64,000 nucleotides of DNA, taken from NCBI RefSeq assembly GCF_023023025.1, contig NZ_CP095481.1, positions 930,001-994,000 on the forward strand, in the 5' to 3' direction. The first letter of the stretch is position 1. Every line of letters begins with the position of its first letter. Made by a program: the position numbers and the translations under genes. The notes beneath the pieces are model-generated. The model made no database searches and was not told the DNA's origin. It saw only the letters and a program-made list of their open reading frames with translations. Source of the DNA: Amycolatopsis sp. WQ 127309. Its GTDB lineage: Bacteria; Actinomycetota; Actinomycetes; Mycobacteriales; Pseudonocardiaceae. Shown here piece by piece: positions 40,965 to 50,286 of this stretch.

Positions 40965-41037
40965 GCCCTCGTAGCTCAGGGGATAGAGCACTGCCCTCCG
41001 GAGGCAGGTGTCGCAGGTTCGAATCCTGCCGAGGGCA
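40965..41037 (+). tRNA. tRNA-Arg (anticodon CCG)
   Basis: A full cloverleaf of 73 nt: acceptor GCCCTCG/CGAGGGC, D-arm with TAGCTCAGGGGATAGAGCA, anticodon stem CTGCC/GGCAG with loop CTCCGGA (CCG), T-arm with GGTTCGAATCC, discriminator A. CCA is not encoded. Reads CGG codons. Confidence 0.97.
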
Positions 41038-41058
41038 CCCAGATCCATTGCGCAAGAC

Positions 41059-41091
41059 CGGCCTCTACCAGCGAGAACGCGGTAGAGGCCG
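41059..41091 (+). terminator. Terminator after tRNA-Arg
   Basis: Perfect 11-base arms CGGCCTCTACC and GGTAGAGGCCG with an 11-base loop, 21 bases beyond the tRNA, followed by ACTCATTTCCTCC. Confidence 0.8.
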
Positions 41092-41145
41092 ACTCATTTC
41101 CTCCTCCGTGCCCCCCTGCAGCCGACCCGTCTCGGCTTGACAAGT

Positions 41146-41154
41146 TGTGGACAA
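41146..41154 (-). other. Consensus DnaA box, single
   Basis: TTGTCCACA on the - strand, in the gap after the tRNA and before the peptide gene. Only one box is present, so it is not an origin; it may titrate DnaA or be coincidental. Confidence 0.4.
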
Positions 41155-41204
41155 CCCGGCCCAGACCCGCCGCTGGACGGTTCCCGTGGGGTATGTCCCT
41201 CATG

Positions 41205-41210
41205 CATAAT
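41205..41210 (+). promoter_or_regulatory. Candidate -10 of the peptide/HExxH operon
   Basis: CATAAT, 36 bp before the GTG of the small peptide gene. The matching -35 (TTCCCG, 41181-41186, 18-bp spacer) is weak, so this is only a suggestion. Confidence 0.35.
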
Positions 41211-41245
41211 GGAACAACGCGATCGCGATAGGGAGGCTGGTCGGC

Positions 41246-41416
41246 GTGAGGTCAACCGATTCAGAGGTACACACGGAATTGCTCGATCTCACCGGAGTTC
41301 CCCTCGGGGAACTCCGCACGCTCCACACTCCATCGCTGAACACGGCAATCAGAAAAGTGTTCGACCGCTCCAGGCGAGTCGACGTCGACGAGATTCAAGG
41401 ACAGATTTCGATCTGA
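41246..41416 (+). CDS. Small FxSxx-like (FxsA-type) precursor peptide, 56 aa
   Basis: GTG start with GGGAGG nine bases upstream. Residues 12-39 read LLDLTGVPLGELRTLHTPSL and TAIRKVF, the arrangement typical of FxSxx-COOH precursor peptides (hydrophobic L-x-D-L-x-G-x-x-L-x-x-L leader then a helix). The tail is RSRRVDVDEIQGQISI, which lacks the terminal F-x-S-x-x. The following gene on the same strand, 74 bp on, is a HExxH peptide-modification protein. I infer a RiPP-like substrate whose acidic tail (Asp46, Asp48, Glu49) may be hydroxylated. No homology search was possible; a chance frame cannot be excluded. Confidence 0.6.
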   Translation: MRSTDSEVHTELLDLTGVPLGELRTLHTPSLNTAIRKVFDRSRRVDVDEIQGQISI

Positions 41417-41490
41417 TCCACGACGGACGATCCTGCGCCTGAATCTCCGTGATTCGCTTCAGGCGAACCGGCGAAAAGGAGCACAATCGA

Positions 41491-43275
41491 ATGCAGGCCG
41501 AACTGCCGCGTCACCGGCTGCCGTGGTCGTTCTTCGTCCAGCTCTGCACCGGGCCCGCATCGGCCGCCGTCATCGAAAACCTGCGCTCCGGGCAGCTCAG
41601 CCGGCGGAAACTGCAGGCTCGCGCACTGACGGAACTCCTCGCCACCAGGCCGGACAGCCCGGCGCACGCCTGGTCCGTCCTGGTCGCGGCCGACCGGCGC
41701 GATCCCGGCCTGGTCAACGAACTGCTGCTGCACCCCTCGGCCGGTGTCTGGCTCACCCGGACGCTCCGGAAATTGTCCGGAGCGGCCACGGACAGCACGC
41801 CGCTGCGGACCGACCTGGACTACCTCGCCTCGATCGCCGGTGCGGCGGCGACGCGCTGCGGGCTACCCTGCACGCTGGAAGTACCGGTGGTGCACGGGGT
41901 GATCACGCTGCCGACCGTCGGCCAGGTCACCCTGCCCTCGGCGTTCCCCGCGGGCCGCGCGGTCCTCGAAGTCTCGCCGGACGGCGCGGCGGCCGTGCGG
42001 ACACTCACCTCGAGCGCGTCTGTCACGTTCTCCGCACCGGAACCCAGCCCCGGATTCGCGCCCGTCACCCGGCACACCGCGACTTCGCACCGGCTCCGCC
42101 TTTCGATCGAAGTCGACGACCGCGGGCCCTACCGGACCTTTTCAGCGCCGATCGGCCCTCGCCCGCTCGACCCGCTCGAGTACGCCGAATGGACCAAACT
42201 GCTCGACGAGGCGTGGGACATCCTCACCACGCACTACCGGGGATTCGCCGAAGAACTGTCCACCGGTATGTCCACACTCGTTCCGCTGGAAAGCGAGAAC
42301 TCCATCACCGGCGCGTCTTCGTCCATCGCGTTCGGCGCGATCGCGATGACCCCGAAATATTCGGCCGTCGACTTGGCCGAAGCGCTCGTCCACGAACTCC
42401 AGCATTCGAAGCTGAACGCGCTGTTCGATCTCGTCGAACTGCACGACCCGGACTGCGATGAACTCTTCTACGCGCCGTGGCGTGACGATCCGCGTCCGAT
42501 CGGCGGCCTGCTGCACGGCGCCCTCGCGTTCGTGACGGCCGTGGAATTCTGGCGGGTGCAAGCCGAGCACGAACAGGACGACGAGCTGTACGCGCAGTTC
42601 AACTACGCCTACCGGCGACGGCAAGTGCGGCAGACGGCCGAGACGCTGCTCGCGTCGCCGGCGCTGACCGGGTTCGGCCGCCGGTTCGTCGCCTCGATCG
42701 CCGAGCGGTTGTCGGCCGTCGAAGACAGCGCGGTCACCGACGAGGTACGAGAAGTGGTGGCGAAGGTCGCGGACGAACACCAGGCCGCGTGGCGACTCCA
42801 GCACCTGCGCCCCGATGAGAACCAGGTCCTCGCCCTCGCGAAAGCCTGGTCGACCGGCGCCCAGGAACCTCCCGGCCCGCTCGGACCGGCCGTCGTCGTC
42901 CCGTGCCACCGGTCACTCACCCGGTCGCCTCGCTCCGATCTGCTCAAGCTGCGATTCCTGGGCCAGGAGAACGCGGTCCCACCCGCGCGAACGCGCAACC
43001 TGTCCACGGCCGACCTGCACTACGTGGCGGGAGACCGCGACCAGGCCCGGGCGGCCTACACCGCCACAATCCGCGCGAGCCCCCAGGACGACCAGGCATG
43101 GCTCGGGCTGGGGCTCACATCGCCGGCCGAAGCCGACGGGACGCGCAGCATCCTGCTCACTTCGCCGCACGTCGTCCTCGCCGTCCGGGACAAGTTGCTC
43201 GCCCGTAACCACCGGCTCGACCGGCCGGTCGAGCTGGTGCGCTGGTTGAACACCGCTTCCGTGCCCGCCGATTAA
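41491..43275 (+). CDS. HExxH-type putative peptide beta-hydroxylase, 594 aa
   Basis: The ATG at 41491 has AAGGAG eight bases upstream. The N-terminus HRLPWSFFVQLCTGPASAAV and LSRRKLQARAL is the usual start of HEXXH-motif proteins found with FxSxx and other RiPP precursors. The metal motif is LAEALVHELQHSKLNALFDL, with His301-Glu302 and His305. Acidic and His residues that could complete the site follow in LVELHDPDCDELFYAPWRDD. The C-terminal part has one TPR-like unit (LHYVAGDRDQARAAYTATIR). Databases name this group aKG-HExxH-type peptide beta-hydroxylase, so alpha-ketoglutarate and iron dependence is expected from the family rather than seen. The 3' end shares a hairpin with the convergent operon. 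Confidence 0.8.
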   Translation: MQAELPRHRLPWSFFVQLCTGPASAAVIENLRSGQLSRRKLQARALTELLATRPDSPAHAWSVLVAADRRDPGLVNELLLHPSAGVWLTRTLRKLSGAATDSTPLRTDLDYLASIAGAAATRCGLPCTLEVPVVHGVITLPTVGQVTLPSAFPAGRAVLEVSPDGAAAVRTLTSSASVTFSAPEPSPGFAPVTRHTATSHRLRLSIEVDDRGPYRTFSAPIGPRPLDPLEYAEWTKLLDEAWDILTTHYRGFAEELSTGMSTLVPLESENSITGASSSIAFGAIAMTPKYSAVDLAEALVHELQHSKLNALFDLVELHDPDCDELFYAPWRDDPRPIGGLLHGALAFVTAVEFWRVQAEHEQDDELYAQFNYAYRRRQVRQTAETLLASPALTGFGRRFVASIAERLSAVEDSAVTDEVREVVAKVADEHQAAWRLQHLRPDENQVLALAKAWSTGAQEPPGPLGPAVVVPCHRSLTRSPRSDLLKLRFLGQENAVPPARTRNLSTADLHYVAGDRDQARAAYTATIRASPQDDQAWLGLGLTSPAEADGTRSILLTSPHVVLAVRDKLLARNHRLDRPVELVRWLNTASVPAD

Positions 43276-43291
43276 CGGCGAGCACGGAAGC
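43255..43291. terminator. Shared terminator hairpin enclosing a stop codon
   Basis: GCTTCCGTGC (43255-43264) pairs with GCACGGAAGC (43282-43291), and CGCCG (43266-43270) with CGGCG (43276-43280). The loop ATTAA contains the TAA stop of the HExxH gene. It lies 8 bp from the stop of the convergent TPR gene and should end both messages. Confidence 0.75.
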
Positions 43292-43298
43292 GTGTGCG

Positions 43299-46200
43299 TC
43301 AAAGCTGCATGGTGTCGGTGTCGCAGTTGGCCCGCTCGGATTTGACCGCCGCGGCCACGGCCTGGTGCTGCTCGCCGAGGGCCTTGCGCAGTCCGGCGAG
43401 CGTGTTCGCGTGCAGGATCGTGGCCTCGTCCTCGCGGCCCATGGCGCGCATGTCGATCGAAAAGTTCAGGGCGATCGCCAGCGTGGCGGGGTGTTCCGTC
43501 CCGAGTACCCGGCCCGACCGCTCCAGGTTGGCGACGTCGAGTTCGTACGCTGCCTCGGTCTCGCCGAGCGCTTCGAGGTCGCTGGCCAGGTTGGTCACGC
43601 ACACCATGGTGGATGGGTGGTCGTGGCCGAAGACCCGCTGCAGCGCCGCGCTCGTCCGCTCGTCGATCAGCCGCGCCTGCTCGATGTCACCCATCAAGCG
43701 GAGGGTGATCCCCAGGTTGATGGCGGACACCAACGTGAACGGGTGTTCCGCGCCATGGGTATCGACGAACAGCTGGTGACTCGACTCGCCGAGCTTGCGA
43801 GCACCGGCCAGGTCACCCAGGTGCCGCAGGTCGGCAGCCATGCAGGTTTCCGACGTGATCGTGTCGAGGTGGCGGTCACCGTGCCGTCGGCGGTAGCGCT
43901 CGACGCATTCCTGCGAAAGCTCGAACGCCCCCGTGTGGTCGCCGGCCTTCCGCCGGGCGACGGCGAGGTTGCGCATCGCACCGATCGTGCGCGGGTGGTC
44001 GTCGCCGACGACCTCGCGCTGCCGCTTCAACGTGCCTTCCTGAAGCTCGCACGCCTCGACGTACTGGCCGCACTCACGAAGATCCATGGCCAGCGCGTTC
44101 AGGGTCAGGAACGTGTCGATGTGCTCCTCGCCCAGCGCGATCTTCTTGCGCCGCCAGACGTCTTCGTCGAGATCCCTCGCCTCGAAGAACTTGCCGACCA
44201 GGCGGAGCGTGCTCGCCAGGTTGCCGCCGGCGGCCAAGGTTGCCGGGTCGTCCTCGCCGAGCACCCGCCGCGACCGCTCGAGGATGTCCTCGCCCATTTC
44301 CAGTTCCCGGTCGAACCGGCCGAGGGACCGCATGTCCTGCCGCACGGTGCCGGCGACGTTCAGGAAGAGCTCGTTGTCCTCCCCCACGGTCTCCCGCACC
44401 AGATCGTAGGTGCGGTTGTTGAGCGCCCGGGCCTCTTCCGTTTGGCCGAGCCGCCACAGTGAGACACCCTGCAGCCGGGCCATGGCCAGCGTGTCGGGGT
44501 CACTCTCGCCGAACATCTCGGTCCACTTGGTCAACGCCTGCCGCGAAGTTTCGCGCGCGCCCTCGTAGTCACCGTAGCTGACGAGGTAGCGGACCAGATT
44601 GATCATCATCCGGCGCACCCACGCGTCGGACTGGCACTCCATCATCCGCGACACCATGGCGTGCGGGAGCAGCTCGGAGTACGTCTTCCAGTTGGCCGAG
44701 TTCTCCGGGTCGTTCGGGTCGCCGTGCACCAGGAGGATGTGGACGGCGTGCCGCATCACGTCGTGCTCGGCGTCGTCCAGTTTGTTCTTGAGCACGGTCT
44801 GGACCAACCGGTGCAGCTGGAGGGTGTTGCTCCGGTGGTCCAGCCGGGCCAGGCTGTACCGGCTGATCTCGCGGATCGCCAGGTTGAGCTTGATCGGCTG
44901 GCTGAACGCGGTGGCGAGATCATCGGGCACCGGCACGCCGCGCACCGCGGTGAACAAGTTCCGCGAGATGGGTTCCGGCCCGAAGAAGGCACACACCTGG
45001 AGCAATTGGAGCGCGGCCGGGTGCGACGCGCGAAGCTTGGCCAGCGGGACGTTCCACGCCGCGGCCACGGATCGCTGGTAGTCGGCCGAGCCTTCGCTCT
45101 CCGTCATCTCGGCCAGGTTCTGGTCGAGCAGTTCCAGGTATTCGGCGACGGGCATACCGGTTTGCGCGCGCCACGCCGCCGCCTGCTCGATGGCCAGCGG
45201 CAGGTCTCCGAGTGCCTCGGCGAGCCGGTCGGCGTCACCGTCGTTGATCTCGCCGCCGGCGCGGCGAAGCAGTTCTTTGCTCTCTTCGCGGGTGAAAAGG
45301 TCGACCTCGACCGTCCGCGCCACTCCGGACCATTGGGAGTTCCGGGAAGTCACGACGATATGCCCGGTTTCGCCGGCGACCGCCGGGAAGAACGGGCTCA
45401 CGATCTCCGGCCGGTCCGCGTTGTCGAAGACCAGTAACCAGCGTGAATAGGGATCGCCCTTGCGCAGTGCTTCCAGAACACTGGGCACCGCCGCGTCCGC
45501 CGTACCCGGAACTTGCAGGCCGAGCCGTTTGGCCAAGTCGACCAAGCTGCTCGAGATCTGCGACGGGTGCTCGGCGGGAATCCACCAGATGACGTCGTAG
45601 TCGTTGGCGTGGCGGTAGATGTACTCGACCACGGTCTGCGACTTGCCGACACCACCCATGCCGTGCAAGGCCTCGGGGAGCACCGCCGTCGCTCCGCCGG
45701 CCTGGACGAGCCGGGCCCTGAGCTGGTCCAGCAGATCGATCCGGCCGACGAAATCCGGGTTGCGCAAGGGAATCGTTCCCCAGATCTGCGGCCGTGATGT
45801 TCGCAGTGGACCTGAGGCGGCCGGTACAGGCGAGGCGGGAACTGTCACGGCGTCGTCTCCTCCGGAGGGGGTGGTGGTACCCGCGGGCTCACCCGACGAG
45901 GTCCGGGTGTCGGTCGTGGTCAAGGCGTGGTCCTCGAGGTCGGGTCCGGATTTCTGAATTGATCCAGAAACAGTGTCAAATACCACATTAGGGGCTCCGG
46001 AGGTACGGCCGCTCATCGCATCTGTGTGCGGAGCCAGATCCGCCTCGAGTTTCTTCGCGCGGCGCGCGTACCTGCCCGAGAGCGCGCGGAATACAGCTTC
46101 CTGAACACGCAGGTAGGGCACGTTTTCCGGAGAGGCGTCAAGCAACGACGCGGCATCCGGGTCGTCGACCGCGTCGCGGTAGTTCCGCAACGCCGCGATC

Positions 46201-47756
46201 CGGGCACCGGCGTACTGACCGAGAACACGAGCGACTCTCACAGTGGTGTCACGCCGCTCGCCGGAAAGGAGTTCCGCCCGGACTCCGTCCCGGAATTCGA
46301 AAGTCACTTCCGACGGATCGGCCGCGGCATGGTTTCGCGAGACCCGGTGGAGCAAACCGCCGAGGAGCACCTCGGCCAGCGCGGGAAGTCCGGAACCCGG
46401 GAGCAGCACGCGTTGCACGAGCCGCATGATCGGCAGGTTCAGGGGCGCGGCCGCGAGCAGGCCCGCCAGCTGGAAGGCCTGCTCGGACGCGTAAGTACGG
46501 AAGCGGAGCACCTGGTTCCGTGGCGTCACTTCTTCGGGTGGCTCGACTTGGCCCGCGGTGTCCAGCAGCCGCTTGCGGTGGTCGGGGTGGGCGAGCACGG
46601 CGGTCGTCTCGATCGTGGTCGCCGTCGAAACCAGTTTGGCCCAGTCCCGCAACCAGGCTTCCGACAAGGTCAGGACCGGAACGGCGACCGCGCCCTCGGT
46701 CGCCGCCGAAGGCATATCGCCGGCCGCGGGCGCGCCGGAGCCCTTGGTGTGGACCCGCAACCGGCGGTTGGGCACGCCAGGAGCGGACGCCGACAGCCGC
46801 AGCCTGCTGGGGGAAAGCCCACCCCACATCCACAGCCGCTGCGGGAGCATGTGCGCCACGGCCACGGGCATCTGCTCGGACCACCGGGCCAGCATTTCGT
46901 GGGCAACGCCGTCGTGCCAGGTCGTGCCGATCGCATCCGTCATGACCATGATCAACCTGCGCCCGGTCGGATCGGCGAGGTCCTTGGCCCGGTAGACCGC
47001 CCCGCCATTCCCTTCCGCGCGCAGAATGGGATCGCCGGCCGACGGCTCCGAACTGTCCATCAGGTGCACCCGCACGTCCCGGAAGGCTCCCTGCCTGCGG
47101 GCCAGGTTCCGGAACTCGCCGACGGTGTGCTGCCAGAGCTCCATCGACGGCGCGGTGTCCACCACGAGCGCGAGTTCGAACCGGTGCCACAGGTCCGGCT
47201 TCCAGACCGGTAACCACATCCCGTCGTCGGCGGCTCGAGTGGCGGTGGCTTCCTCGTCGAGGATCGTCGCCCACGGCGAGGGCGACGACCGCATGAGCGG
47301 CCGGAGCGCCCGGCTGATTTCCCGCGCCTGTGGCAGCGCGGGCGCGGTCGGCCAGTTCAGCGGCGCGGTCTCCCGGCCGTCGTCCGCTGTCACGCCCGCG
47401 GCGTGGACGAACCGGGTCGGCCCCGGCAGCCAGTCCTGCCTGCGCAGTGACGACGCCCCCGGGTCCGGTGGGGCATTCCCTCCCGCCGGACCGGTGTTGT
47501 CCGTGTCGTCCGGTTGCCGGGGAGCAGCGCCGGTGTCCGGCGTTTCGGGCGGTGCTTGGTCTGTCCCGTCGACCGCCGGCGGCGGATCCTTCTTGCCAGG
47601 CCTCGCCGGTTTCGCCGCCGCTCGCGGCACACCGAGCCGGCCGGCCAGCCACAAGATGTCCCGGGCCTCCCGCCACGAGAGGTCCCGCACGCGCAGCACC
47701 GGCTCAGCCGCGCCCGGTTCCCGGGGCGGCTGAGCTCCACTGGGCGTCGCGGTCAC
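43299..47756 (-). CDS. vWA-NB-ARC-TPR protein of the FxSxx system (FxsT-like), 1485 aa
   Basis: Starts at the GTG 47756 inside the MoxR stop (GTGA). Residues about 20-45 form a short helical segment (VRDLSWREARDILWLAGRL), followed by a proline-rich linker. A vWA-like domain lies at about 185-360, with a MIDAS-type loop LALVVDTAPSMELW (the SAV_2336 N-terminal type). The NB-ARC ATPase has Walker A GMGGVGKSQ at about 698-706, Walker B RWLLVFDNADRPE at about 773 and IVVTSRNSQW. From about 1040 to the end there are some ten TPR units of the LGxxHPxTL kind. STAND proteins of this type sense a trigger and oligomerise. It is last in the VMAP-MoxR operon. Confidence 0.85.
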   Translation of the reverse strand: MTATPSGAQPPREPGAAEPVLRVRDLSWREARDILWLAGRLGVPRAAAKPARPGKKDPPPAVDGTDQAPPETPDTGAAPRQPDDTDNTGPAGGNAPPDPGASSLRRQDWLPGPTRFVHAAGVTADDGRETAPLNWPTAPALPQAREISRALRPLMRSSPSPWATILDEEATATRAADDGMWLPVWKPDLWHRFELALVVDTAPSMELWQHTVGEFRNLARRQGAFRDVRVHLMDSSEPSAGDPILRAEGNGGAVYRAKDLADPTGRRLIMVMTDAIGTTWHDGVAHEMLARWSEQMPVAVAHMLPQRLWMWGGLSPSRLRLSASAPGVPNRRLRVHTKGSGAPAAGDMPSAATEGAVAVPVLTLSEAWLRDWAKLVSTATTIETTAVLAHPDHRKRLLDTAGQVEPPEEVTPRNQVLRFRTYASEQAFQLAGLLAAAPLNLPIMRLVQRVLLPGSGLPALAEVLLGGLLHRVSRNHAAADPSEVTFEFRDGVRAELLSGERRDTTVRVARVLGQYAGARIAALRNYRDAVDDPDAASLLDASPENVPYLRVQEAVFRALSGRYARRAKKLEADLAPHTDAMSGRTSGAPNVVFDTVSGSIQKSGPDLEDHALTTTDTRTSSGEPAGTTTPSGGDDAVTVPASPVPAASGPLRTSRPQIWGTIPLRNPDFVGRIDLLDQLRARLVQAGGATAVLPEALHGMGGVGKSQTVVEYIYRHANDYDVIWWIPAEHPSQISSSLVDLAKRLGLQVPGTADAAVPSVLEALRKGDPYSRWLLVFDNADRPEIVSPFFPAVAGETGHIVVTSRNSQWSGVARTVEVDLFTREESKELLRRAGGEINDGDADRLAEALGDLPLAIEQAAAWRAQTGMPVAEYLELLDQNLAEMTESEGSADYQRSVAAAWNVPLAKLRASHPAALQLLQVCAFFGPEPISRNLFTAVRGVPVPDDLATAFSQPIKLNLAIREISRYSLARLDHRSNTLQLHRLVQTVLKNKLDDAEHDVMRHAVHILLVHGDPNDPENSANWKTYSELLPHAMVSRMMECQSDAWVRRMMINLVRYLVSYGDYEGARETSRQALTKWTEMFGESDPDTLAMARLQGVSLWRLGQTEEARALNNRTYDLVRETVGEDNELFLNVAGTVRQDMRSLGRFDRELEMGEDILERSRRVLGEDDPATLAAGGNLASTLRLVGKFFEARDLDEDVWRRKKIALGEEHIDTFLTLNALAMDLRECGQYVEACELQEGTLKRQREVVGDDHPRTIGAMRNLAVARRKAGDHTGAFELSQECVERYRRRHGDRHLDTITSETCMAADLRHLGDLAGARKLGESSHQLFVDTHGAEHPFTLVSAINLGITLRLMGDIEQARLIDERTSAALQRVFGHDHPSTMVCVTNLASDLEALGETEAAYELDVANLERSGRVLGTEHPATLAIALNFSIDMRAMGREDEATILHANTLAGLRKALGEQHQAVAAAVKSERANCDTDTMQL

Positions 47757-48793
47757 TCCGACTCCAAGGACGACAACGGGTGCCAAATCGCTTCGAGGAG
47801 TTCGGTCCAGTCGCCGTCGCGCTGGTACGCCCCCGAAGTCGCGAGTTCGGCGGCCATGTGGACGGCGTTCAGCAATTGGTCGGCCGCCAAGCCGCCCACG
47901 CGTTCACTGCGTTCGAGGAACTGCTCGATGAGCAGCCGGATGTCCAGGCCGTCGGTGTCGCCGAACTGGGCCGCCACCATCAGCCCCAGTTGCTCGAACG
48001 TGGGCGGCCGCATTTCGAGTTTCAAGCACCGGCGGAGAAATGCGGGCGGGAAATCCCGTTCTCCGTTGCTCGTGATGATGACGATCGGAAAGGCCCGCGG
48101 CCGGACGCGGCCGTCCTTGACCACAGCCGTACCGCCGCGGTCGTGCGTGAGCACGGTGACTTCCGACCGCAGTTTCGCGAGACGGACGAGTTCCGGAATT
48201 TCGTATTCGCCGTCTTCGAACACGTTCAGCAGATCGTTCGGCAGGTCGATGTCGCTCTTGTCGAGTTCGTCGATGAGCAGGACCCGCGGTTTCTCGAACG
48301 GCAGCAGAGCGGTGCCGAGCGGGCCCACACGGATGTAGTCGCCGATGTCGGCCGGTTCGGCGTGGTGCTCGCCCGCCGCCTGGACGCGGCCGATCGCGTC
48401 GTAGAGGTAGAGCCCGTCCTTCAGGACCGACCGACTGGAGATGGGCCACTTGAGCACCGGACCGAGCCCGAGTTCCGTGGCCACCAGGTAGGCCAGGCTC
48501 GATTTCCCGGTACCCGGACGACCGGTGACCAGCAGCGGGCGCCGCAGGTAGATGGCCGCGTTGACCATCGCGACCTCTTGCCGGTCCGAGACCCGGGCCT
48601 GGCTGCGCAGCCGTCCGATCCGGCGTTGCCCGTCACCGCCGTCGTCGGGCGGCAGGGTGACTGGCCCCTCACCGCCGAACTCACGCCAGGGCGGCGGGTC
48701 CGGCAGCGAGACCTCCCCGGTTCCGGCGGGAAGCCCGGTTCCCCGGTAGACCTGCCAGTCACGTTCGTGGTTTTCCGATTCGGCACCGGTCAT
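47753..48793 (-). CDS. MoxR-family AAA+ ATPase, 346 aa
   Basis: Walker A is VTGRPGTGKSSLAYL at about residues 89-103, Walker B VLLIDELDKSDIDLPNDLL at about 169-187, sensor 1 region FPIVIITSNGERDFPPAFLRR. The ATG at 48793 overlaps the VMAP stop (ATGA) and its own stop overlaps the start of the TPR gene. MoxR proteins work with vWA partners to remodel targets; the partner here is the vWA domain of the next gene. Confidence 0.88.
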   Translation of the reverse strand: MTGAESENHERDWQVYRGTGLPAGTGEVSLPDPPPWREFGGEGPVTLPPDDGGDGQRRIGRLRSQARVSDRQEVAMVNAAIYLRRPLLVTGRPGTGKSSLAYLVATELGLGPVLKWPISSRSVLKDGLYLYDAIGRVQAAGEHHAEPADIGDYIRVGPLGTALLPFEKPRVLLIDELDKSDIDLPNDLLNVFEDGEYEIPELVRLAKLRSEVTVLTHDRGGTAVVKDGRVRPRAFPIVIITSNGERDFPPAFLRRCLKLEMRPPTFEQLGLMVAAQFGDTDGLDIRLLIEQFLERSERVGGLAADQLLNAVHMAAELATSGAYQRDGDWTELLEAIWHPLSSLESE

Positions 48794-50286
48794 ACGCTCG
48801 ACACCGCCTCGGGTGCGGTCGGGCGCTGCGGTACCACCATGCGTTCGGGGTCGTCCCACAAGATCGCCAGCCGGCTGCCGACGTGACTTCCTTCCGGCCC
48901 TTCGGCGAACGCGGACAGCCTGATGAGCCGAAGGCGTTCCAGCAGGTGGTGCGGGTCTTCGGCGTGCAGTAGCTCTTTCACGGTGTGGGAAAATTCCTCC
49001 GAACGGCAGTCTTCTCGATGCCAGACCATGACGGGAAAGCCGGCGCGCAGGCCCACGGCGATCTCGTCGCTTTCCACGGTGAACGGACGAGGCGGCTCAC
49101 TGAGCACGAAGGCGACGAGATCCGGTTTCGCCTCGAACCACGCCGTCAGCTCACGTAAATTCCGCGCCTCGTCCCGCGGGCTCCAGAACCCGGATTCGGG
49201 CGCGATCGAGCCACCGCCCCCCGCCTGCGCTTTGAGTTCTTTCCACCGCACGTACCAAGCACGGTGCCATTTCCTTGCCTTCATTCTTTCCAGACTTCGC
49301 ACCCCCATGGGAAAATGGCAACCGAGCGGTTCCGGAATGCTGGTCTCGACTTCCCACTGCCATTGGTCGACGTCCAGGTGCAACAGGTCCCGGGAAAGGA
49401 TGAAATCGAGCCGGATGTCCGGATCGTACGGCGCCCACTCGCCTTCGACCTTCTCGGCCAGTTCGGCGACTTTGCGCCGCACCTCTTCAAATCCACCGAA
49501 GAAGTCGGGCCCGCGTTCCGGGTACCAGCCACCGGAGACGTCAAGCTGCCGCCAGTGCGACAACAGATAGCCGTCGCCGGTCGGCCCGTCGGGCTGCAGC
49601 AGGAAAACCAGGTAGGCCTCCGACCGGGGTTTCGGCGGATCCACCAAACGGGCTACACCCTTGATCTGATTACGGAAACCTTCGAGTTCCTTGACCAGAT
49701 CCATCCGGCGGGCCTTCTCGTCCACCCATCCCCGGATCTCCGCGGCCAGGTCGAACCGAAGCCGCGCGGCGACGTGCTCGACGAGCATCAAGCTCTTCGG
49801 CACCCCGTCCGGACCGCAGTTCAGGGTCTCCAGCAGCAAAAACGCCTGCTCCAGCTGCGCTTCGGGCGGCAGTGGGGGCGCACCGGTACCGGCGACGTGC
49901 GCGTAGATGTCGGTGACGTCGGACGCGGTCACGCCGGACAACAGGCCGAACAACTGGTGCCGCTCCTCGGCCGTCCAGGCCTGCAGCGACGTCAGGTCGA
50001 GAATTATCTGCCGGACCTCTGTCAGCGCGATGGTGCCGGGCTCCACGCTCTCCAGCACACCGAGGAGGACGAGCAAGCCGTCCGGCCGCTGCCGGCACGA
50101 GTCGACGATCGCGAGCAAATGCAAGTTCGTCTGCGAATATTCGTTAACGGGCAACAAATAGCCCAGTTCGTCGGAGAGCAACCGGAGGACCAGCCGACGG
50201 CTGTTGGGGTCGCTCAGGCACGACACGCCCTGCAATGCCTGGACCAGAGACCACAGGGCACCCGCGCCCGGTGTCTCACCCATCAT
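48790..50286 (-). CDS. VMAP-C protein with N-terminal EAD2-like domain, 498 aa
   Basis: The ATG at 50286 is preceded by GGAGG at seven bases. Residues 8-95 (LWSLVQALQGVSCLSDPNSR, RLVLRLLSDELGYLLPV, VEPGTIALTEVRQIILDL) look like effector-associated domain 2, a helical adaptor that recruits effectors with a matching domain. The C-terminal half (from about 230: PYDPDIRLDFILSRDLL, DQWQWEVETSIPEPLGCHFP, VRSLERMKARKWHRAWYVRW) fits the vWA-MoxR-associated protein C domain. First gene of the three-gene operon; no EAD2 effector is encoded in the window. Confidence 0.75.
   Translation of the reverse strand: MMGETPGAGALWSLVQALQGVSCLSDPNSRRLVLRLLSDELGYLLPVNEYSQTNLHLLAIVDSCRQRPDGLLVLLGVLESVEPGTIALTEVRQIILDLTSLQAWTAEERHQLFGLLSGVTASDVTDIYAHVAGTGAPPLPPEAQLEQAFLLLETLNCGPDGVPKSLMLVEHVAARLRFDLAAEIRGWVDEKARRMDLVKELEGFRNQIKGVARLVDPPKPRSEAYLVFLLQPDGPTGDGYLLSHWRQLDVSGGWYPERGPDFFGGFEEVRRKVAELAEKVEGEWAPYDPDIRLDFILSRDLLHLDVDQWQWEVETSIPEPLGCHFPMGVRSLERMKARKWHRAWYVRWKELKAQAGGGGSIAPESGFWSPRDEARNLRELTAWFEAKPDLVAFVLSEPPRPFTVESDEIAVGLRAGFPVMVWHREDCRSEEFSHTVKELLHAEDPHHLLERLRLIRLSAFAEGPEGSHVGSRLAILWDDPERMVVPQRPTAPEAVSSV

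Follow-up and report, generated by a model that had tools for sequence, protein, structure and literature searches.

Here we describe a five-gene locus in a 64,000-nucleotide stretch of DNA (hereafter the window) from the soil bacterium Amycolatopsis sp. WQ 127309 (G000:C1:930001-994000 of an 11.13-Mb single-contig genome), in which a short peptide gene and a gene for an HExxH-motif protein on the plus strand face genes for VMAP, MoxR-type and vWA-NB-ARC-TPR proteins on the minus strand. We regard it as probable, with modest confidence, that the five genes form a VMAP-MoxR-vWA ternary conflict system of actinobacterial type, in which an NB-ARC ATPase and a TPR sensor are part of the vWA protein itself and to which a two-gene peptide arm is joined, the peptide being oxidized by the HExxH protein and read by the receptor as set out below. 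Of this reading, the analysis establishes the gene content of the locus, the joint inheritance of its genes in the systems sampled, the oxygenase fold and signature of the HExxH protein, the class to which the peptide's tail belongs and the existence of an EAD2-bearing, cyclase-like protein in the same genome. The module type itself has been known since 2020; what is new is a tail class absent from the published text, the re-reading of the HExxH protein as an oxygenase, and exceptions to a published rule on receptor fusion.

All five genes were confirmed at the positions given by the initial annotation, which had been made from the sequence alone, and its family assignments were borne out when the proteins were scored with NCBIfam and Pfam models against the cut-offs of those models. 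The peptide matched TIGR04268 (FxSxx-COOH) at 29.1 bits (cut-off 28), over profile positions 1-37 of 44, and had no match in the Pfam library copy used, while the HExxH protein scored 172 bits with TIGR04267 (cut-off 40), its C-terminal region giving a TPR match below threshold. The receptor scored 420 bits with NF041121 (SAV_2336 N-terminal, covering the vWA region; cut-off 200) and 881 bits with NF040586 (FxSxx_TPR; cut-off 300), and exceeded the Pfam cut-offs of PF00931 (NB-ARC), DUF7779 and TPR families, with no Pfam vWA match in its vWA region. The MoxR-type protein exceeded the cut-offs of PF00004 (29.5 bits) and PF07728 (26.4 bits); no MoxR-specific model was among its matches, and its label reflects AAA membership and context. 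The VMAP protein exceeded those of PF19956 (EAD2), PF19916 (VMAP-M0) and PF20028 (VMAP-C; 161 bits, cut-off 27), and so the window holds the parts by which a ternary system is recognized: a VMAP-C protein, an adjoining MoxR-type AAA+ ATPase and a vWA component.

Regarding start codons, the genes had been called correctly but two of the starts were revised, to a likely ATG at 48793 for MoxR and a likely GTG at 47756 for the vWA protein. With these likely starts the three minus-strand genes overlap by 4 bases each (ATGA for the MoxR start and VMAP stop, GTGA for the vWA start and MoxR stop), as in translational coupling. The open frame of the HExxH protein spans 41449-43275 on the plus strand, and an AAGGAG directly upstream favours the ATG at 41491. 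A promoter and terminator scan of 41040-41500 returned nothing.

Table 1. Features of the locus, with positions in the window.
Feature	Position	Strand	Basis
Precursor peptide, 56 amino acids (aa), FxSxx-type leader, tail DEIQGQISI, GTG start	41246..41416	+	TIGR04268, dN/dS
Tail motif (D/N)x[IV]QxQ = DEIQGQ, residues 48-53, predicted core or recognition element	41387..41404	+	Q51/Q53 conservation
alphaKG-HExxH-type peptide oxygenase (predicted), 594 aa	41491..43275	+	TIGR04267, fold; AAGGAG-based start
HELQH, expected iron-binding motif, H315-H319 (numbering from 41449)	42391..42405	+	conservation
WRDDPRP signature	42478..42498	+	alignment with ChlH
vWA (SAV_2336 N-terminal type)-NB-ARC-TPR receptor/effector protein, 1485 aa	43299..47756	-	NCBIfam, Pfam; GTG start
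SAV_2336-type vWA region, degenerate MIDAS-like motif DTAPS	46197..47678	-	NF041121; sequence
NB-ARC/AP-ATPase region, P-loop GMGGVGKS	44757..45773	-	Pfam
TPR region, proposed peptide-binding part	43317..44669	-	NCBIfam, Pfam
MoxR-type AAA+ ATPase, 346 aa, P-loop GRPGTGKS	47753..48793	-	Pfam
VMAP protein with EAD2, VMAP-M0 and VMAP-C, 498 aa	48790..50286	-	Pfam
tRNA-Arg(ccg), left border of variable interval, sole tRNA in window	40965..41039	+

Family score, HExxH motif and fold all placed the HExxH protein among the alpha-ketoglutarate (alphaKG)-HExxH peptide hydroxylases of TIGR04267, the structural comparison covering the families in its listing. H315, E316 and H319 were present in all 80 systems of the survey described below, and the HExxH motif was intact in all 129 genes compared (91 convergent with a fused receptor, 22 near a radical S-adenosylmethionine (radical SAM)-like frame and 16 other). 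The signature W[RK]x[DE]xRP was lacking in 3 of the 91 convergent genes and 6 of the 16 other ones, and WRDDPRP of the window protein aligns with WREDLRP of the characterized domain ChlH. By family, signature and fold we therefore judged the protein to be an alphaKG oxygenase rather than a peptidase. Kaur et al. 2020 (PMC7159879) call this enzyme a metallopeptidase in the text available, and a zincin-type metallopeptidase that frees a C-terminal toxin or signal peptide, as they proposed, would likewise account for the HExxH motif; it seems to us quite improbable, since in family, WRxDxRP signature and fold the protein agrees with the alphaKG-HExxH oxygenases, whose characterized members are, in the sources consulted, Fe/alphaKG oxygenases. 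Fold, signature and conservation led us to drop it as the leading interpretation. The substrate of the oxygenase is likely the neighbouring peptide.

The initial annotation had further proposed that the oxygenase works without a radical SAM enzyme, which is true at the window: no CxxxCxxC frame longer than 300 aa lay within 4 kb on the HExxH strand, the only part of the genome searched, so that an FxsB partner is lacking there, and NF040587 scored 120 bits at the locus, under its cut-off of 225. It is not general for fused receptors, since four loci (L146, L148, L149 and L150) carry radical SAM-like, HExxH and fused vWA-NB-ARC-TPR genes together, with peptides that hold the AGF-type tails AGFQNRI, AGFDSNM, AGFEAVI and AGFQSGM, respectively; the presence of a radical SAM gene and receptor fusion are thus separable. 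According to Kaur et al. (PMC7159879, text as available), systems with FxSxx peptides have a vWA component fused to TPRs only.

Of the family's 297 genomes, 146 had TIGR04267, and the neighbourhood survey drew on the window and on 139 usable stretches, taken from its own genome and from relatives. It contained 110 fused vWA-NB-ARC proteins, toward 91 of which an HExxH gene ran, so that the co-occurrence on which the reading of the initial annotation depends was upheld; the proportion was 79 of 82 in stretches chosen via HExxH or peptide matches, but 12 of 28 in those chosen via the vWA gene. A search for related loci with the HExxH protein returned one locus (L006). For further comparison we used the 80 systems in which an HExxH gene converges on a fused receptor and a regular expression located a peptide upstream of the HExxH domain, at a set distance from it; this set leaves aside the 19 of 110 receptors with no convergent HExxH gene and the 11 of 91 with no peptide found, among them the four radical SAM-bearing systems, where the peptide precedes the radical SAM gene, and L134, where a likely peptide was found later. 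In the 80 systems the stop-to-stop gap between the facing genes had a median of 5 bp (range -118 to 802). Elsewhere in the window's genome, three HExxH genes stand in tandem (L016, G000:C1:7217455-7220491), with no peptide, vWA, MoxR or VMAP gene found in the 20-kb stretch around them.

The window peptide is kept in relatives, with a ratio of nonsynonymous to synonymous substitution rates (dN/dS) of ~0.36-0.39, computed from dN and dS in three pairs. Its C-terminus is not FxSxx, ending instead in DEIQGQISI, and the final 7 positions of the TIGR04268 profile have no match in it. Sorted by patterns of our own, the tails of the 80 peptides fell into RxD (48), QxQ (8, including the window), GGH (7), CDxK (6) and other (11) classes; L125 (SSSVAGSQPS) was placed in GGH, and the choice of peptide was revised for L024. 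Since 74 of the 80 systems were selected via HExxH or peptide matches, these frequencies are no population estimate. All eight QxQ peptides, a set itself defined by the glutamine pattern, have D14, L15, A34, Q51 and Q53 in common, and a profile built from these peptides retrieved 57 proteins, of which 49 had [IV]QxQ, one another QxQ and seven an RxD/E ending. The motif being built into the profile, these matches describe the class and do not prove it; [IV]QxQ occurred in 17 of 8005 short background frames, and the named sources of QxQ matches are Amycolatopsis, Kibdelosporangium, Saccharothrix, Actinosynnema, Umezawaea and Saccharopolyspora.

The tail also bears on a second chemical outcome, oxidative backbone cleavage near the motif, as PflC and PosC perform at ARMD, which would split the precursor into a peptide with an amide end and a short fragment from the C-terminus, with the released piece as the ligand. 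PflC and PosC provide the precedent (PMC12636437, as far as its available text goes), and the 1 to 15 residues that follow QxQ in the 49 proteins are what one would expect of a discarded piece; as inspection by eye showed no small residue kept at a constant distance beyond QxQ, and ARMD-like endings are a trait of the RxD class and not of QxQ, we hold this outcome to be unlikely.

The QxQ class was recovered as one clade in the tree of every component, with Shimodaira-Hasegawa-like approximate likelihood ratio test (SH-aLRT) support of 100 for the HExxH protein (end branches of ~0.2 to 0.9) and 100, 99, 99, 94 and 98 for TPR, NB-ARC, vWA, MoxR and VMAP, respectively. These were quick searches with SH-aLRT as the sole support (77 rows for MoxR and 79 for VMAP; the stretch does not reach the MoxR and VMAP genes of the second L043 system, and those of the first system were used for both). 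As the first HExxH tree gave a warning of long branches meeting, L043 with L043b among these, it was rerun under a mixture model with 41 rows, where the support was again 100, as it was without L043 and L091. This single-clade placement is the independent support for the class. Across 76 systems, Spearman correlations of pairwise distances ranged from 0.72 to 0.89, uncorrected for linkage and shared ancestry, with the HExxH-TPR pair highest, and such co-variation would be expected between an enzyme that makes a ligand and the receptor for that ligand. In the sampled systems the five genes are inherited as one unit.

In the reading that we favour, the 56-aa peptide would be synthesized in the cytosol and dock through its leader on the HExxH oxygenase, which, with Fe(II), alphaKG and O2, would hydroxylate the tail, most likely at one or both glutamines of (D/N)x[IV]QxQ, as PflC and PosC do elsewhere. 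The modified peptide would stay inside the cell and bind to the TPR superhelix of the receptor, whose on or off state it would set; upon a flip of that state NB-ARC would oligomerize and MoxR would remodel the vWA part, and VMAP, via its EAD2, would recruit an EAD2-linked signalling enzyme encoded elsewhere, here a class III nucleotide-cyclase-like protein ~88 kb away. More speculatively, the hydroxylated peptide could serve inside the cell as a token for 'all is well' (or for alarm): a cytosolic RiPP (ribosomally synthesized and post-translationally modified peptide), oxidized at glutamine by an enzyme dependent on O2, Fe(II) and alphaKG, would be read by the TPRs of an NB-ARC receptor that guards the oxygen/2-oxoglutarate state of the cell or the enzyme itself, and each lineage would have a private tail code (QxQ, RxD, GGHxS, CDxK) to which the enzyme and receptor of that lineage are fitted; to this extension we give a rather low probability.

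Several points weigh against the favoured reading. The modification, the glutamines as its site, TPR binding, the direction of the switch, the role of the cyclase and a function in defence are steps that we infer, and QxQ may serve for docking rather than be the site of modification. The correlation of the HExxH protein with the other components (TPR 0.89, NB-ARC 0.84, vWA 0.83, MoxR 0.78, VMAP 0.81) roughly declines with distance along the locus, and its co-variation with TPR may come about through mere adjacency and linkage. The peptide arm is not obligatory, since only 12 of the 28 fused receptors in stretches chosen via the vWA gene (40 such stretches, by the thresholds used) had a convergent HExxH gene, and 17 of 28 had any HExxH gene in the stretch; the 74 systems selected via HExxH or peptide matches moreover come from one family and include many close relatives. 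The metal-ion-dependent adhesion site (MIDAS) is degenerate in the window's clade, and metal binding at that of the window protein is, from its sequence, doubtful; the MIDAS-like DTAPS occurs in three of the 80 systems, the window included, and the motif varies widely in the rest. Finally, PADLOC 2.0.0 gave weak partial ATPase matches to the MoxR-type protein (best, IetA at 20.2 bits) and none to the other four proteins, though absence from this 2023 library does not exclude a defence role.

A different view of the same genes, suggested by the RiPP-like precursor and its tailoring enzyme, is that the product of the peptide arm is a RiPP for export, a signal or a bacteriocin, and that the ternary system merely protects the maker or senses peptides from outside. 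The five-gene block, to which the search was confined, leaves no room for a transporter or a protease, and the peptide and ternary parts are co-inherited, which makes export highly improbable.

On the effector side, scoring of 150 of 173 candidates found three EAD2 domains in the genome: in the window VMAP, in the VMAP of a second system and in a 350-aa protein beside the latter. That second peptide/HExxH/VMAP system (L015, G000:C1:1052000-1071900) has two peptides ending in RVE, a standalone NB-ARC-TPR protein of 931 aa and the EAD2-linked cyclase-like protein. A model of the 350-aa protein, built from an alignment of six rows only, had a predicted local distance difference test score (pLDDT) of 72, and a fold search with it gave 81 PDB matches at E<=0.001, all 50 of those listed being cyclases (TM-scores over the target 0.15-0.74); the modelled fold thus matches that of class III nucleotide cyclases. 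Each of six further QxQ-system genomes had 2 to 4 EAD2 matches, at least one of them besides the VMAP of the QxQ system. Kaur et al. 2020 (PMC7159879), in the text available, propose that EAD2 recruits signalling domains and name cyclic nucleotide monophosphate (cNMP) cyclases among the VMAP-linked ones.

The tRNA gene that the initial annotation had placed beside the system is indeed there and, given that its flanks occur with the system, empty and with other genes, points to a variable interval. Both in the window and in G194 the system sits between an epoxide hydrolase/tRNA-Arg flank and an AraC flank (~9.4 kb between the matched flanks in each), whereas in G316 the matched flanks lie ~0.7 kb apart with none of the system's domains between them, two RxD-class systems being found elsewhere in that genome (L090). 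In G317 other genes lie between the two flanks; this interval (L190, G317:C1:4763000-4772200) holds proteins that, judged by eye alone, resemble gas-vesicle proteins. G340, the nearest relative at the tRNA flank (94%), has other genes after tRNA-Arg, with no AraC match found; here (L189, G340:C1:5134500-5144500) we noted a CRP-type regulator, a vWA protein and a protein that is cyclase-like by eye (no Pfam match). In Amycolatopsis iheyensis the system lies ~26 kb from the matching flank. A tRNA gene was present at one of the 12 loci scanned (tRNA-Arg, beside the L031 system) and missing at the other 11, and so a tRNA-integrated element was set aside, the tRNA being a border of the interval and not a mechanism. 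This variability, together with the 11 of 28 vWA-selected fused receptors that have no HExxH gene in the stretch, would suit a locus whose five genes share only a defence-island-like site, with no functional tie between the arms. Against it stand the fixed tail-to-tail arrangement with its short median gap in many genomes, the missing tRNA genes and the concordant trees, and we attach little probability to it.

If the favoured reading is true, a bacterial NB-ARC-TPR receptor, whose domain plan resembles that of immune receptors in plants and animals, would be partnered by a peptide that is encoded in the genome and modified by an enzyme. The pairing of peptide, enzyme and receptor could then be tested concretely and cheaply via the tail classes, and the re-reading of the 'peptidase' as an oxygenase would give chemists a different product to seek.

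Among known systems, the closest are those of Kaur et al. 2020 (eLife, PMC7159879), who, in the text available, describe a vWA-AP-ATPase/TPR fusion beside peptide and HExxH genes in two of four peptide types. The initial annotation had presented the fusion as a new link between two systems; since section 24 of that paper describes the same architecture, its 'hybrid' is a known arrangement and the novelty is not supported. With the RxD/acidic subtype the window shares VMAP, MoxR, a vWA protein fused to AP-ATPase and TPR, an HExxH gene and a small diverging peptide gene; it differs in its (D/N)x[IV]QxQ tail, which lacks a terminal RxD or four contiguous acidic residues (the longest acidic run in the peptide is DE), and in an HExxH protein that we judge an alphaKG oxygenase and they a peptidase. 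The peptide does contain an internal RVD (residues 44-46), absent from the seven other QxQ systems and retained in some close homologues, and as the available text leaves the position of the RxD motif unspecified, membership in the published type keeps some plausibility. That text lists no QxQ, GGH or CDxK type, though the supplementary tables may hold a QxQ-like tail, and no other paper among the matches listed tied alphaKG-HExxH enzymes to VMAP systems.

With the FxSxx-COOH/FxsB RiPP systems the window has in common the peptide leader family (TIGR04268), the HExxH domain family and the FxSxx_TPR receptor family (NF040586), and differs in having neither a radical SAM gene nearby nor an FxSxx tail. 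The fold over residues 23-442 and the HExxH motif are shared with ChlH (PDB 8s5f) and SjiH (22nu/22ob), and WRxDxRP with ChlH; the window enzyme differs in lacking a radical SAM partner and in its extra C-terminal region, whereas, in the records consulted, ChlH is an HExxH domain within a radical SAM fusion and 22nu is named a radical SAM core protein. A search for SjiH by name gave unrelated papers alone among the matches listed. PflC and PosC (PMC12636437) and PesO (PMC13060819) are, like the window enzyme, free alphaKG-HExxH enzymes on short precursor peptides, and PflC and PosC beta-hydroxylate glutamine (PMC12636437); their precursors differ in ending in ARMD or R(V/T)DN, the pfl and pes clusters have transporters, and the available text of the two papers does not mention the ternary system. 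It is rather the RxD-class ends, such as ERID and AKRVD/E in L020 and L015, that resemble these ARMD and R(V/T)DN substrate ends, which by analogy suggests a common recognition element.

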